Source: Desulfobacterales bacterium (GTDB taxonomy: Bacteria; Desulfobacterota; Desulfobacteria; Desulfobacterales; JAAELO01). From it: a stretch of DNA of 64,000 nucleotides. Below, one piece after another: positions 29,274 through 33,516 of this stretch. The position numbers and the translations under genes are program-made. Position 1 is the stretch's first letter, and each line of letters begins with the position of its first letter. Location of the stretch: assembly GCA_024226555.1 (NCBI GenBank), contig JAAELO010000756.1, positions 1 through 64,000 on the forward strand, in the 5' to 3' direction. Below the pieces are notes generated by a model that worked only from the letters and a program-made list of their open reading frames with translations, ran no database searches and was not told the DNA's origin.

Positions 29274-31442
29274 ATGTTACAGGAAATTTTATTAAAAAGA
29301 CTACATATCTTATCTGTTGGAAAAGCAGAAACAAACCTTAAGAAGAAATTAGGTTTTCTTGCTGAGTTAGGAAGCATGGGATACAAAGTTACAAATCCTG
29401 AAGCTTATAATGATTCTGTTCTTCATAACTATTCAGGTACTATTTCAATACTTCAAGAGATGAAGGGTGGAAATGTTAATTATGTACCTTTATTTCAGGG
29501 ATTCCCAAACGAAGTACCTGATCAGGACGAATATTTTGTTAAAAGAATAGTGGGATTTGTAAGCAACTATATCAAAGTATCAGAAGGTGAAGCACTCGAT
29601 AGTGGCTTTATAGTTCCAGAGTGGCTTTTTGATCTTGAAGAGTTTGGAGCTGATCCAATAACTCAGTTTCAGGACAAATCACTATTTAAGAAAGGTATAT
29701 TAAGCCAGTTAAAACGTAAGAAAGATTCAAATACAGTCTGGTTTGATCTTCAGATTAAAAATCATGATTATGCTATTTGCGCTTTAAAAGAATACTTACA
29801 AAGTATTCTTTATTCAAAATCATCAGTTAAAGAGGAGCTGAAAGACCATATAGTATATCTTTTAAATTACTTTAAAGCAGACGATATTGATGCAGATAGA
29901 GTAGTTTTTAAAGAAACAAAAAGTTATTTGATGAAATTCTACTGGGATAGAAAAGATTATAAAGCATTGGAAAGCTACCTTAAGACTCCAACTGATTGCT
30001 TAAGGTTGTTTGCGGCGTTAACAGATTCAGACACATCATTAACTGCCAAAATAAAGTTTCCAAAGCTTAAGAGAGCTCAGAGAAGGTTTATTTTATACGT
30101 TATTAACAGATGCTCAAATGCTGCTGAAGATATGAATGTTTATAAAGGTTTATGGCTTGAATTAGGTCGCTATCTGCACCCAGGTGAATATAAGGATAGT
30201 TATAAAAAAACATATGAAGCCTTTGATATATTAAGGAATAAAAAAGTAATTACTTTTAATTCAAGAATAGAATCTTTTATTAAAGATAAGAATATAGATA
30301 ATTTACTTGATTTGATCTCAAAAAGACCAGGTATCTTTGCAAGAAAACTTCACCAGGTCCTTGAGGTTTCAGCCACTGTTTATGAAACAGAAAAAGTACT
30401 GACTTCATTTGAGAGTGTTGTTGATAAGGTAGAACTTAAAAACCTTATGGTTATGGACTCATATTTTAAAACAATAGAACAGTCTGACTTTCGAACTATC
30501 ATTAACAAAAGGGGTAAAATTCTTGTGATGGATAATAAGAAAGAAAGAGTTTCAGAAGAGTTTGTAGTAAAGCTATTAGGTATATTTGAAGAAGCTATGA
30601 TTAGAAAAATAGCTGAAGACAAAGACAACTGGGTTGATAAAACAGCATGGGTTGACAATGAACTACTAAATTACACTGTACCTCTTCAGCAAAGAGCAGC
30701 ATCAGATGGACTAATGACCTTAGGTCGTGGTAGTAAAATACCTCTGGACGAAGGAAAGGTTTTAAGACTGTTTGTATACTGGAAGCAAAAGGAACAACGA
30801 ACAGACCTTGACCTGTCTCTCATTAAATATGATGAGAACATGAAATTTACTGGTCATATCAGTTATACAAATCTTAAATCCGGAGGTATTTTACACTCTG
30901 GTGATATTCAGTCAGCTGAACATGGTGCTGCTGAATTTATAGATATAGATTTGTCCGCCTTAAAGAAGATGAAAGATGTAAGGTATATAGCTACCCAGGT
31001 TTATAAATATTCTGGTGAGAGGTTTCAGGAGATGGATTGCCATTCTGGCTGGATGATTCGGGATAAGGTTAATAAAGACTATAAGTCATTCGATATCAAA
31101 ACAGTGCAGAATAAATTTGACATCAATGGTGCTGGTTCATATGCAATTCCAATAGTTGTTGATGTTGTGAAAAATGAAATTACTTTTGTGGATCTTTATG
31201 TAAATGGTGTTAATGCAGGAAATAATGTGGAAGGTGCTCATTCTGATATATCTGTTATTACAAGAGAGATGTTAAGAATGATCGACACAAGACCAAACAT
31301 GTTTGATCTTGCACATCGCAACATTAAAGGAAGATGCGCAGTATTGGTAGAAAATAAAGATGAAGCTGATATTACTTTCGGTATTAAAGATTGTGATTAC
31401 AACGTTTCGAATATCGAGACAGTATTATCAGAACTTATTTAA
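29274..31442 (+). CDS. TerD-like domain protein upstream of the permuted tRNA array
   Basis: A 722-residue protein. Residues 1-460 are helical and rich in Leu and Lys, with segments such as LWLELGRYLHPGEYKDSY and ISKRPGIFARKLHQVLE, which suggest a HEAT-like solenoid reminiscent of TROVE-type RNA-binding proteins. The C-terminal ~260 residues resemble TerD: PLQQRAASDGLMTLGRGSKIPL, RTDLDLSLI, HSGDI and GAAEFIDIDLSAL, a calcium-binding beta-sandwich fold. It is preceded by a sigma-54 promoter; TAGGAGC at 29261-29267 selects the ATG at 29274 over the longer frame from 29196. The first permuted tRNA scaffold starts 15 bp after its stop with no terminator between. TerD proteins are linked with RNA-repair and stress operons; a role in handling these tRNAs is my inference. 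Confidence 0.75.
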   Translation: MLQEILLKRLHILSVGKAETNLKKKLGFLAELGSMGYKVTNPEAYNDSVLHNYSGTISILQEMKGGNVNYVPLFQGFPNEVPDQDEYFVKRIVGFVSNYIKVSEGEALDSGFIVPEWLFDLEEFGADPITQFQDKSLFKKGILSQLKRKKDSNTVWFDLQIKNHDYAICALKEYLQSILYSKSSVKEELKDHIVYLLNYFKADDIDADRVVFKETKSYLMKFYWDRKDYKALESYLKTPTDCLRLFAALTDSDTSLTAKIKFPKLKRAQRRFILYVINRCSNAAEDMNVYKGLWLELGRYLHPGEYKDSYKKTYEAFDILRNKKVITFNSRIESFIKDKNIDNLLDLISKRPGIFARKLHQVLEVSATVYETEKVLTSFESVVDKVELKNLMVMDSYFKTIEQSDFRTIINKRGKILVMDNKKERVSEEFVVKLLGIFEEAMIRKIAEDKDNWVDKTAWVDNELLNYTVPLQQRAASDGLMTLGRGSKIPLDEGKVLRLFVYWKQKEQRTDLDLSLIKYDENMKFTGHISYTNLKSGGILHSGDIQSAEHGAAEFIDIDLSALKKMKDVRYIATQVYKYSGERFQEMDCHSGWMIRDKVNKDYKSFDIKTVQNKFDINGAGSYAIPIVVDVVKNEITFVDLYVNGVNAGNNVEGAHSDISVITREMLRMIDTRPNMFDLAHRNIKGRCAVLVENKDEADITFGIKDCDYNVSNIETVLSELI

Positions 31443-31481
31443 GGATTAAAAACAAAGAGGATTAGATATTATTTCCTTCTA

Positions 31482-31558
31482 CATTCCAAGCCGAAAACGC
31501 GGGTTCGATTCCTGCTCGTCAACCTTTAGTTGATGATAGTTTAGTGGCAGAACATCGG
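31482..31558 (+). tRNA. Permuted tRNA-Gly(TCC)
   Basis: The 3' part (31482-31523, anticodon TCC at 31485-31487, T-arm 31499-31515, acceptor strand TCGTCAA) precedes the 5' part (31530-31558: TTGATGA, D-arm GTTT...GAAC, TCGG). Joined after G31558 to C31482 they give acceptor 7 bp, D-stem 4 bp, anticodon stem TCGGC/GCCGA and T-stem 5 bp with loop TTCGATT. The 6-nt linker is CTTTAG, and G31529 could pair with C31523 as an extra acceptor pair. No CCA is encoded. The flanks are GAGGATTA 31457-31464, arm 31465-31472 (GATATTAT), TTCCTTCT 31473-31480, return arm 31563-31570 (ATAGTATC) and tail 31571-31579. Confidence 0.85.
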
Positions 31559-31785
31559 GATAATAGTATCAATTTCCTCAAAAAACATAAGGATTATAAG
31601 AAATAAATATCAATAAATTAACAAAGAAAAACCCTCTGAAAGCGAACAAACCAAAATCGTGTTTGTTCTATTGAGTGCCAAACTTTTGAAAAGTTTGATA
31701 AACACATTTTGCTGAAAAAAGATTGATTGTCATTCCTGAGGGGATTTACAATAATCCAAAGAGGATTACAGACCATTTCCTTCTT

Positions 31786-31863
31786 ATTAAGATCTATCTG
31801 CCGCAGGTTCAACTCCTGTCCATCAGTTAAATCTGGTGGTAGCTCAGTTGGTAGAGCAATAGA
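31786..31863 (+). tRNA. Permuted tRNA with anticodon TAA
   Basis: The 3' part (31786-31827) precedes the 5' part (31833-31863), with linker TAAAT. The acceptor CTGGTGG/CCATCAG pairs with one G-T wobble, the D-arm is GCTC...GAGC, the anticodon stem ATAGA/TCTAT is perfect and the T-stem GCAGG/CCTGT pairs. The loop reads ATTAAGA, so the anticodon is TAA with G37. TAA would be Leu, but there is no long variable arm and position 73 is T, so the identity is open. ATTAA occurs at both cut ends, so the exact join is ambiguous. The flanks are GAGGATTA 31761-31768, arm 31769-31776 (CAGACCAT), return arm 31868-31875 (ATGGCCTT, two mismatches) and tail 31876-31884. Confidence 0.8.
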
Positions 31864-31894
31864 ATTAATGGCCTTAATCTCCTCAACATAAATC

Positions 31895-32081
31895 GGATTA
31901 GGTAGTGGGAACCTCTAATAAGCGGAGTTTTGATTCAAATACAAGGCATGAGAAAAAAATTACCTATGGTTTAAAGGTGATTCCTTTTTCGAAAAACGCA
32001 GTATTTGTTCAAAAGAACAGTTATTAGATGTTCCCTAATACTTCCTTCTAAAAACCTTAAAATAGTATTACCGATTTCCGT
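31895..32081 (+). ncRNA. Empty scaffold copy (no tRNA), split by a MITE
   Basis: GGATTA (31895-31900), then GGTA (31901-31904), then a MITE, then ATAC (32038-32041) and TTCCTTCT (32042-32049). Removing the insert with one TA of its target duplication rebuilds the 8-nt arm GGTAATAC, which pairs perfectly with GTATTACC at 32065-32072. The tail GATTTCC follows. Between the arms there are only 15 nt (32050-32064) instead of a tRNA. The outer GAGGA/TCCTC helix is degenerate (TCGGA/TCCGT), so this copy is probably inactive. Confidence 0.65.
31905..32035. repeat. MITE copy M inserted in a tRNA scaffold
   Basis: GGGAACCTCTAATAAGCGG and CAGTTATTAGATGTTCCC are the ends. TA at 31903-31904 and TA at 32036-32037 are the target-site duplication, which can be recognised because the interrupted 8-nt arm has a perfect complement. 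This is the best evidence in the window that the family transposes into TA. Confidence 0.8.
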
Positions 32082-32099
32082 TAATAAAAAATATATTTT

Positions 32100-32176
32100 C
32101 TGGGAGTAGATCAGTCTGGTAGATCGCGTGATTTGGATTCACGAAGCCGCAGGTTCGAATCCTGCTTCCCAGACCA
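32100..32176 (+). tRNA. tRNA-Pro(TGG), linear copy 1
   Basis: A normal colinear cloverleaf of 77 nt with CCA encoded (32174-32176). The acceptor is CTGGGAG/CTTCCCAG, the D-stem GATC/GATC, the anticodon stem CGTGA/TCACG and the T-arm GCAGG-TTCGAAT-CCTGC. The loop TTTGGAT gives anticodon TGG with A at position 37, whereas tRNA-Pro almost always has G37. The acceptor and T-arm still look like bacterial tRNA-Pro. Confidence 0.85.
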
Positions 32177-32218
32177 TAAAAATAAAAACGAGGATTAGAG
32201 ATAGCTTCCTTCTAAATA

Positions 32219-32297
32219 TTTTACCCCGCAGGTCGTAGGTTTGACTCCTACCCAAAAGCAAATGCTTTTGGTAGCTCAGTTGGATAGAGCAGCGGGC
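32219..32297 (+). tRNA. Permuted tRNA-Lys(TTT), copy 1
   Basis: The 3' part (32219-32259: TTTTAC loop, CCCGC, T-arm GTAGG-TTTGACT-CCTAC, CCAAAAG) precedes the 5' part (32265-32297: CTTTTGG, GCTC...GAGC, GCGGG, C). The acceptor stem is 7 bp, with G32264 able to pair with C32259 as an eighth. The anticodon stem GCGGG/CCCGC is perfect and the anticodon is TTT (32220-32222). The join lies at about position 32/33. The flanks are GAGGATTA 32190-32197, arm 32198-32205 (GAGATAGC), TTCCTTCT 32206-32213, return arm 32304-32311 (GCGATCTC, one mismatch) and tail 32312-32320. No CCA is encoded. Confidence 0.85.
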
Positions 32298-32367
32298 CAT
32301 TAAGCGATCTCATTTGCCTCAACTTAAAAACTAAGAATATATTAAGCTGGCTAAGTAAAAAACTAAA

Positions 32368-32457
32368 TTTGCAAGGCGTCAGCATTTGATCAGGCGCGAA
32401 GATGTATGTTTTTAATACCTCGAACGTCTGATCTATTGCTGCAACAAAGCAAATGGA
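32368..32457. other. Long imperfect hairpin inside the tRNA array
   Basis: GTCAGCATTTGATCAGGCG on the left is matched by the inverse ACGTCTGATCTATTGCTGC on the right, and the outer AATTTGC pairs with GCAAATG. The two arms are about 25-30 nt with mismatches and a loop of about 25 nt. There is no tRNA or ORF in it. It might be a processing signal or a remnant of another element. Confidence 0.45.
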
Positions 32458-32503
32458 GAATTTTTACAACGCCAAAGAGGATTACAGACCATTTCCTTCT
32501 ATC

Positions 32504-32583
32504 GCCTTTTAAGCTACAGGTCGCGGGTTCGAGTCCCGCCCAGCAGATTTTGAACTGCTGGTAGCTCAGTTGGTAGAGCAGTA
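32504..32583 (+). tRNA. Permuted tRNA-Lys(TTT), copy 2
   Basis: The clearest permuted tRNA. The 3' part (32504-32547) starts GCCTTTTAAGC, giving the canonical Lys loop CTTTTAA; the 5' part (32555-32583) ends in GTA. The join must lie between positions 29 and 30, because GC of the anticodon stem GTAGC/GCTAC comes from the upstream piece. The acceptor CTGCTGG/CCAGCAG is perfect, the discriminator is A, the T-arm is GCGGG-TTCGAGT-CCCGC and the D-arm GCTC...GAGC. The linker is TTTTGAA. The flanks are GAGGATTA 32477-32484, arm 32485-32492 (CAGACCAT), TTCCTTCT 32493-32500, a perfect return arm 32588-32595 and tail 32596-32604. Confidence 0.9.
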
Positions 32584-32625
32584 AATAATGGTCTGAATTT
32601 CCTCAACAAAAAAAGAGAGTTTTCT

Positions 32626-32702
32626 CGGGGAGTAGATCAGTCTGGTAGATCGCGTGATTTGGATTCACGAAGTCGCAGGTTCGAGTCCTGCTTCCCCGAC
32701 CA
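32626..32702 (+). tRNA. tRNA-Pro(TGG), linear copy 2
   Basis: A colinear 77-nt tRNA almost identical to the copy at 32100-32176, with CCA encoded. The acceptor is CGGGGAG/CTTCCCCG; the D-stem (GATC/GATC) and anticodon arm (TTTGGAT, A37) are the same. The difference in the acceptor stem is compensated on both sides (T-A to G-C and similar), which shows it is under selection. Confidence 0.87.
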
Positions 32703-32763
32703 ATATAACATAGCAAATGGAGATTTCTTACAGAAAGAGGACTAAAGATCATTTCCTTCTAAC

Positions 32764-32841
32764 TTTGGGACCCACAGGTCGCAGGTTCAAATCCTGCCCG
32801 GAACGAAAGTTTTGGTGGCCCAGTCTGGGTAGGGCGGTGGG
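32764..32841 (+). tRNA. Permuted tRNA-Pro(TGG)
   Basis: The 3' part (32764-32805: TTTGGGA loop, CCCAC, T-arm GCAGG-TTCAAAT-CCTGC, CCGGAAC) precedes the 5' part (32809-32841: GTTTTGG, GCCC...GGGC, GTGGG). The linker is only AAA. The acceptor pairs with two G-T wobbles. The anticodon is TGG with G37, the normal Pro arrangement, unlike the two linear Pro copies nearby. The flanks are GAGGACTA 32737-32744, arm 32745-32752 (AAGATCAT), TTCCTTCT 32753-32760, a perfect return arm 32848-32855 (ATGATCTT) and tail 32856-32864. No CCA is encoded. Confidence 0.85.
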
Positions 32842-32880
32842 TATATAATGATCTTGATTTCCTCTACTTAAAAAGTGTTT

Positions 32881-32965
32881 GAGGATTAGAAGTTGTTTCC
32901 TTCTTAATATTTGCAGGTTCGACTCCTGCCATGTATGTGGTGAAAATAACAAGTTCAATTTCCTT
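32881..32965 (+). pseudogene. Decayed permuted tRNA
   Basis: The scaffold is intact: GAGGATTA 32881-32888, arm GAAGTTGT, TTCCTTCT, return arm ACAAGTTC (32949-32956, one mismatch) and tail AATTTCCTT. Inside, only a T-arm (GCAGG-TTCGACT-CCTGC, 32913-32929) and part of an acceptor remain; anticodon and D arms are gone. A MITE begins at 32968, directly after the tail. Confidence 0.75.
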
Positions 32966-32967
32966 AA

Positions 32968-33097
32968 GGGAACCTCTAATAATTAGAATATTTGATGAAA
33001 AACAAGGCATAACAAAAAATAACGGGTTGATTTTACTACAGTTTTATTTTTGATATAACGATGTGTTTCGCAAAAAGATCAGTTATTAGAGGTTCCC
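32968..33097. repeat. MITE copy N
   Basis: GGGAACCTCTAATAATTAG and CAGTTATTAGAGGTTCCC are the ends. It is about 90 percent identical by eye to the next copy at 33267, so both are recent. Confidence 0.85.
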
Positions 33098-33266
33098 ATA
33101 AGTTAACTAAGGCATTCTTTTTGGTGCGAAAAAGTTATTTTTAAGGCCGAAGATGATGTAATGCTAAGTTGTTCTCAAAAAGATTGAATATGCCCTATTT
33201 ACATTTTTCTTGCATTATTAATAAGTTAAAGTTAAAATTAGGACTAATTTTATTGAAATAACTCAA

Positions 33267-33394
33267 GGGAACCTCTAATAATTAGAATATTTGATGAAAA
33301 ACAAGGCATAACAAAAAACAACGGGTTGATTTTACTACAGTTTTATTTTTGTTATATCTGTGTTTAGCAAAAAGATCAGTTATTAGAAATTCCC
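33267..33394. repeat. MITE copy O
   Basis: It has the same ends and interior (ATATTTGATGAAAAACAAGGC, GGGTTGATTTTACTACAG in separate blocks) as copy N, with a slightly altered right end (TTATTAGAAATTCCC). The space between copies N and O (33098-33266) has no gene. Confidence 0.85.
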
Positions 33395-33516
33395 TCAATT
33401 CTAAAAAATATTACTTTCCTGTTTCTGGTTTGCATCTTTAGTTTATAGAACTGATTTTTTAGTTTTTAGATTCCCGATATAGATTCAATTTTAACCTTAA
33501 AAATCTGGAGTAAACT

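Follow-up and report, generated by a model that had tools for sequence, protein, structure and literature searches.

Are the tRNAs with swapped halves found in contig JAAELO010000756.1 of a Desulfobacterales bacterium (assembly GCA_024226555.1) genes whose pieces are joined after transcription, or RNAs of another kind? The window, by which we mean the whole stretch of 64,000 nucleotides analysed, carries an array of five such copies at 31457-32965, numbered here c1 to c5, immediately downstream of an open reading frame (29274-31442) and on the same strand. The copy under study, c4 (32477-32604, + strand), is probably a tRNA mimic, which would not be awaiting splicing; a split tRNA gene is the less favoured reading. 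Y RNAs are the partners of the Ro60 protein, and we consider it likely that c4 acts as a small noncoding RNA in a similar ribonucleoprotein (RNP), that is, a Y-RNA-like tRNA mimic whose partner is unrelated to the TROVE proteins.

Examination of c4 revealed a scaffold enclosing a circularly permuted Lys(UUU)-like tRNA in the order 3' half, 8-nt linker (ATTTTGAA) and 5' half, with a score of 38.1 bits against the hairpin model R2 (see below). The 5' strand of the scaffold (32477-32493, + strand as are all features that follow) is composed of GAGGA, an internal loop UUA and a 9-nt strand of the upper helix, and the conserved UUCCUUCU element (32493-32500) lies between this helix and the tRNA-like domain. 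The upstream piece of the anticodon arm, GC-CUUUUAA-GCUAC (positions 30-43; 32504-32517), contains G30-C31 at 32504-32505, the CTTTTAA loop at 32506-32512 and GCTAC (39-43) at 32513-32517. It is followed by the T arm with the 3' acceptor strand CCAGCAG (32523-32546) and, beyond the linker, by the 5' acceptor strand CTGCTGG, the D arm and positions 26-29 (32555-32583). This downstream piece terminates in GAGC-A26-GTA, where GTA (32581-32583) represents positions 27-29; AA TAATGG then leads into the outer helix, whose 3' strand consists of AATGGTCTG, AATT and TCCTC (32587-32604). Since GUA pairs with UAC at 41-43 and GC with GC at 39-40, the break falls between positions 29 and 30, and a script scoring every cut point returned cut 29 as the sole solution with five base pairs. 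The coordinates, the pairing and the scoring agree with the initial annotation, which had placed G30-C31 and the whole loop in the upstream piece and position 29 at the end of the downstream one, and had located the split inside the anticodon stem, not in the loop.

The same annotation held that the join occupies no fixed tRNA position, and this applies to the window copies as well as to their relatives. The cut is at 30/31 in c1 and at 31/32 or later in c2, c3 and c5, in which the 5' piece supplies all of positions 27-31; on viral contig L278, copies with the break at 28/29 and at 30/31 occur, and any cut from 27 to 29 is compatible with the His-like copy of viral contig L353. By eye, a GC-CUCUUAA-GC mini-hairpin of phage Weasels2 resembles that of c4, but the cut-point script favoured a different cut. 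The stem cut is thus real and recurrent, one among several positions, the extremes being about 28/29 and 31/32 or later.

All five permuted copies present the order 3' half, 4-8 nt linker and 5' half within a common scaffold, made on the left of GAGGA, a 3-nt loop, a 9-bp strand and UUCCUUCU, and on the right of the complementary 9-bp strand, a 4-nt loop and UCCUC. The T, acceptor, D, anticodon and scaffold stems are kept in permuted order in 5/5 copies, with many compensatory changes, and the permuted tRNA structure is well above chance. The covariance model R1 gives them 108-129 bits, the five copies being its own training set, and also detects independent copies in other genomes.

The outer hairpin of the scaffold belongs to a wider family that adjoins MXAN_6230/SCO0854-family genes in several phyla and in phages. 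An alignment of 33 hairpins takes the form NNGG-CUAU-(8-9 bp)-CUUCCUUCUA...UAG-(8-9 bp)-nCUUU-CCNN, with 96.2% of cells paired and a covariation of 0.812, versus 0.165 for shuffled and at most 0.19 for slid alignments. A search of the hairpins against Rfam 15 matched no family except YrlA, below threshold, which makes this a covarying RNA family new to that database. A group II intron or ribozyme scaffold was rejected, the sole Rfam match being 21.5 bits, at chance level. Among ten loci fetched by protein similarity only, with homologs on plasmids and phages, eight have an R2 hairpin with the same CUUCCUUCUA element flanking the gene, and four of these eight were outside the input of R2. Blind scans, in which loci were selected by motif and not by the gene or its strand, gave the gene in 13/74 loci of viral contigs for a DNA pattern, including 11/11 loci with two or more motifs, and in 67/116 loci of genomes for tandem motifs, mostly 5-150 nt off. 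Around 95 such genes, 214 motifs lie on the strand of the gene and 9 on the opposite one, the former being divided into 174 upstream and 40 downstream.

In the window, the MXAN_6230/SCO0854 family is probably represented by the product of the open reading frame at 29274-31442 (+ strand), a 722-amino acid protein with a helical N-terminal part and a TerD-like C-terminal domain, which is the candidate partner of the RNAs. It matches NF041916 with E=1e-96, but its 325 bits fall short of the 600 bits set as equivalog cut-off, and the RING zinc ligands are missing. An AlphaFold2 (AF2) model built on a 25-sequence alignment (predicted local distance difference test score 84.7) is helical over the N-terminal two-thirds and beta-rich in the C-terminal domain, and the only strong Foldseek match in PDB is 2qng (E=1e-4), an entry for SAV2460 that assigns it no function. 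The TerD-like assignment is a prediction: two members of the family match the Pfam TerD domain, and a profile comparison points weakly to a tellurite-resistance protein. In an alignment with the Variovorax homolog, SGFIVPEWLFDLEEFGADPITQFQ (about residues 121-145) corresponds to the RING-like CGHLVNHRLFDLEKFGACPICQHQ, but without its zinc ligands. A single-protein scan of genome contigs revealed no relative, an 11-protein alignment offered no segment of sufficient conservation for a profile search, and PADLOC gave no known-defence match for the gene. To our knowledge, no RNA partner has been described for the MXAN_6230/SCO0854 family; no paper on it was found in the open literature searched, and an earlier mention elsewhere is possible.

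Could the copies nevertheless be permuted pre-tRNA genes? An endonuclease would then cut at both scaffold boundaries and RtcB would join 29 to 30 into a circular pre-tRNA, whose linker would be opened by RNase P and 3' processing, as in algae, whose permuted tRNAs pass through a circular form during maturation (PMC3978253). No tRNA part or anticodon loop is missing, the genome has three RtcB genes, which makes ligation as such possible, and N73-CCA is retained in the linkers of some phage copies (two in L353, one each in L289 and L302). However, the same anticodons are served by ordinary genes, since ARAGORN identified tRNA-Lys(UUU) twice, Gly(UCC) three times, Pro(UGG) and Leu(UAA) in this genome. 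The window linkers contain no CCA, the acceptor ends being capped by 4-8 nt loops, in c5 a GAAA tetraloop. Once re-joined, c4 has 51 identical positions with the tRNA-Lys of the genome and 55 with its tRNA-Gly, and re-joined copies are generally no nearer to the ordinary tRNA of the same anticodon than to others, with the exception of c1, best matched by Gly(UCC). The ordinary genes, the capped ends and the lack of proximity of c4 to Lys leave the joining of the pieces unsupported. Moreover, an EndA-type splicing endonuclease (PF01974) was not found in this genome, 4/4 archaeal controls being positive, and no bulge-helix-bulge motif (3-nt bulge, 4 bp, 3-nt bulge) is present at the junctions of the window copies, which leave about 10 or more nucleotides unpaired on one side and 3-6 on the opposite one. 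U33 is missing in L150 and others, and some scaffold copies have no tRNA whatever. The variable cut point also speaks against permuted pre-tRNA genes, and the initial annotation had turned it against bulge-helix-bulge splicing; its conclusion agrees with the missing motif and enzyme, but the argument is weak, because bulge-helix-bulge junctions of the permuted tRNA genes of Cyanidioschyzon lie at various positions too (PMC3978253) and variability alone is not decisive. The recognition through the outer scaffold that it proposed is retained as regards a conserved and protein-linked scaffold, but not as regards a joining of pieces. On balance, permuted pre-tRNA genes are a quite improbable explanation.

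An array of relics, in which decayed tRNA genes were broken by miniature inverted-repeat transposable elements (MITEs) and owe their permuted look to tandem tRNA duplicates, is more improbable still. Three MITE-like repeats do lie within the array, some linkers have CCA remnants, and the R1 matches in L008/L009, set aside as permuted copies, are ordinary tandem tRNA genes; but the pairing of scaffold and stems is maintained with compensatory changes, and the same architecture recurs across several phyla and phages. Tandem duplication without decay may well be the origin of the permuted module: given that N73-CCA persists in a number of phage linkers and that R1 also picks up ordinary tandem tRNAs, the sequences suggest that it arose from tandem tRNA duplicates captured by a hairpin. 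The motifs could also be cis-acting leaders, that is, tRNA- or protein-sensing attenuators regulating the adjacent gene instead of separate RNAs, as most of them lie just upstream and on the strand of the gene. We regard this as unlikely, because the hairpin is downstream of the gene in the window, Niallia, Vibrio, Variovorax, Weasels2 and LR745208, the five permuted window copies extend over 1.5 kb with tRNA genes in between, no terminators were detected, and the L302 phage contig has a permuted copy away from the gene.

We thus favour a Y-RNA-like RNP, in which the copies would be transcribed as separate RNAs and their outer hairpin (4-5 bp, an asymmetric internal loop, 8-9 bp and UUCCUUCU) would dock the neighbouring MXAN_6230/SCO0854-family protein. 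Some copies carry, in the hairpin loop, a tRNA look-alike of swapped halves in which a short hairpin closes the acceptor end and the anticodon loop is preserved. Within the anticodon arm, the break would mark the point where the scaffold enters, which is why it may sit in the stem, as in c4 and c1, or at the loop end, and no splicing would be involved. The RNP would present the mimic as a decoy for, or sensor of, enzymes that cut or repair tRNAs, or alternatively as an RNase tether in the manner of YrlA and PNPase; this last step is put forward tentatively, by analogy. A mimic presented to tRNA-acting enzymes would fit the RNA-repair genes near some homologs, namely rtcR in Variovorax, RtcB in phage Weasels2 and an RNA ligase in Vibrio.

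Several results weigh against this reading. In the majority of loci the hairpin is plain and carries no tRNA module. R2 fails to detect the TROVE-linked RNAs described below and c3, and gives c2 a weak score, so that the kinship to Y RNAs rests on the architecture, the tRNA-like domain and a UUxCUUC element. On secondary-structure energy alone, alternative folds of the tRNA-like domain are preferred for c1, c4 and c5 (for c4, -42.8 vs -48.2 kcal/mol); the constrained energy of c2, which fell below its minimum free energy through non-standard pairs in the structure supplied, was left out of this comparison. Finally, TROVE homology of the 722-amino acid protein was rejected, as no Pfam match to the domain was found, hhalign gave a probability of 0.1, and Ro60 is absent from the top 50 Foldseek PDB matches.

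Permuted tRNAs in the scaffold beside the gene were found in the window, in Fulvivirga (L150), in a metagenome-assembled genome of Stahlbacteria (L231), in phage Weasels2 and in the viral contigs L077, L275, L278 and L353. The closest relatives found of the window protein, in L150 and L278 (about 46%), both have tRNA-bearing copies. Anticodon loops vary (UCC, UUU, UGG, GUG, GCU, UCU and others), and U33 is mostly kept, not in L150. Related permuted tRNAs also occur directly upstream of TROVE genes in genomes G018 and G059 and on contigs carrying TROVE (L309, L323, L258); in these TROVE-linked RNAs, UUACUUC or UUCCUUC precedes the tRNA-like part. The permuted-tRNA RNAs of the viral, TROVE-bearing L309 and L323 join a YrlA-consensus-like GCGAAUGC stretch with the UUCCUUCU element, and possibly form a bridge between YrlA and the TerD-linked RNAs. 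On viral contig L278 (1-9877), the MXAN_6230 homolog belongs to a phage tRNA cluster in which over 20 ordinary tRNAs are accompanied by three or more permuted mimics and one T-arm-only copy. A weaker permuted-tRNA match in L034 (G006:C328, 5181-5297) lies just upstream of a vWA-domain-like protein without a TROVE match, and the permuted-looking L004 and L006 were set aside, as neither Ro nor TerD adjoins them within the sequence read. The hairpin consensus A4, CUUCCUUCUAA, includes CUUCUAA, the anticodon loop of tRNA-Arg(UCU), which may be a coincidence, as UUACUUCG and UUACUUCC variants occur.

The other copies of the array, all on the + strand, are diverse. c1 (31457-31579; R2 38.1 bits) carries a Gly(UCC)-like tRNA with linker CCTTTAG, c2 (31761-31884; R2 14.9 bits, weak) a loop AUUAAGA (UAA) with linker TTAAAT, c3 (32190-32320) a loop AUUUUAC (UUU) with linker CAAATG, and c5 (32737-32864; R2 35.7 bits) a Pro(UGG)-like tRNA with loop UUUGGGA. 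Two elements are added to the five copies of the initial annotation: c6 (32881-32965; R1 48.6 bits, R2 32.5 bits), a scaffold with a T-arm-only module, and a plain hairpin (32036-32077; 23.1 bits over positions 8-58 of the 62 in R2) whose 5' lower strand was lost to a MITE-like insertion. Because T-arm-only modules recur in L150, L278 and L353, c6 need not be a mere relic. MITE-like repeats bounded by GGGAACCTCTAATAA and TTATTAGAGGTTCCC interrupt the array at 31906-32036, 32967-33098 and 33267-33397. Between permuted copies lie two tRNA-Pro(TGG)-like genes (32100-32176 and 32626-32702), both intact and provided with CCA; their loop is UUUGGAU (A37 U38), versus UUUGGGA in the ordinary Pro(TGG) of the genome, and from this difference they may also be tRNA mimics. 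Elsewhere in the genome, a tRNA-Pyl (CTA) is predicted at G000:C870:629-701.

Together, these observations provide the widespread and functionally uncharacterised MXAN_6230/SCO0854 family with a concrete candidate RNA partner and extend the Y-RNA idea beyond Ro60. Because the mimics retain different anticodon loops, each loop offers a separate test of the purpose that tRNA mimicry serves in Y RNAs (decoy, tether or sensor). A broader proposal, which we consider possible but rather doubtful, is that of a second, TROVE-independent class of Ro/Y-type RNPs, distributed among large phages and numerous bacterial phyla, in which hairpin RNAs held by a protein with a TerD domain would be able to display whole tRNA mimics, anticodon loop included, and these would serve as replaceable decoys or sensors towards anticodon nucleases and enzymes of RNA repair.

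Among known systems, circularly permuted tRNA genes of Cyanidioschyzon and Thermofilum share the order 3' half, linker, 5' half, and the junction is variable in C. merolae; here, in contrast, neither bulge-helix-bulge nor EndA was found, ordinary genes exist too, and the scaffold is conserved without the tRNA. Phage tRNAs evading anticodon nucleases likewise have intact anticodon loops, and many of the present copies are in tRNA-rich phages (L278, L258), but these are permuted and scaffolded with a closed acceptor end, and their decoy role is a prediction. The Ro60/Rsr (TROVE) RNP and RYPER also combine a helical protein with a hairpin RNA bearing a tRNA-mimic module, often near RNA-repair genes, whereas the candidate partner here is not detectably related to TROVE and has a TerD-like domain instead of vWA.

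In YrlA (RF02553), Rsr is bound by the basal stem and PNPase by the tRNA-like domain (PMC8394870); YrlA has also been proposed to divert an anticodon nuclease as a decoy (PMC7790460). As in YrlA, the RNAs described here have an outer stem with an internal loop, which in YrlA is protein-binding, and on it a permuted T arm, acceptor hairpin and D arm closed at the anticodon-stem position; c4 matches the Rfam model with 45.4 bits (2.3e-8) and c3 with 39.3 bits, along with others, below the gathering score of 69 bits. The sequence of the lower stem and internal loop is different, the tRNA module is optional, and the linkage is to an MXAN_6230-family protein: no TROVE gene, and hence no adjacent rsr, was found in this genome, whereas related permuted copies stand beside TROVE/Rsr genes in G018 and G059. 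Above all, the anticodon loop is retained, which is a departure from the YrlA RNAs described so far.
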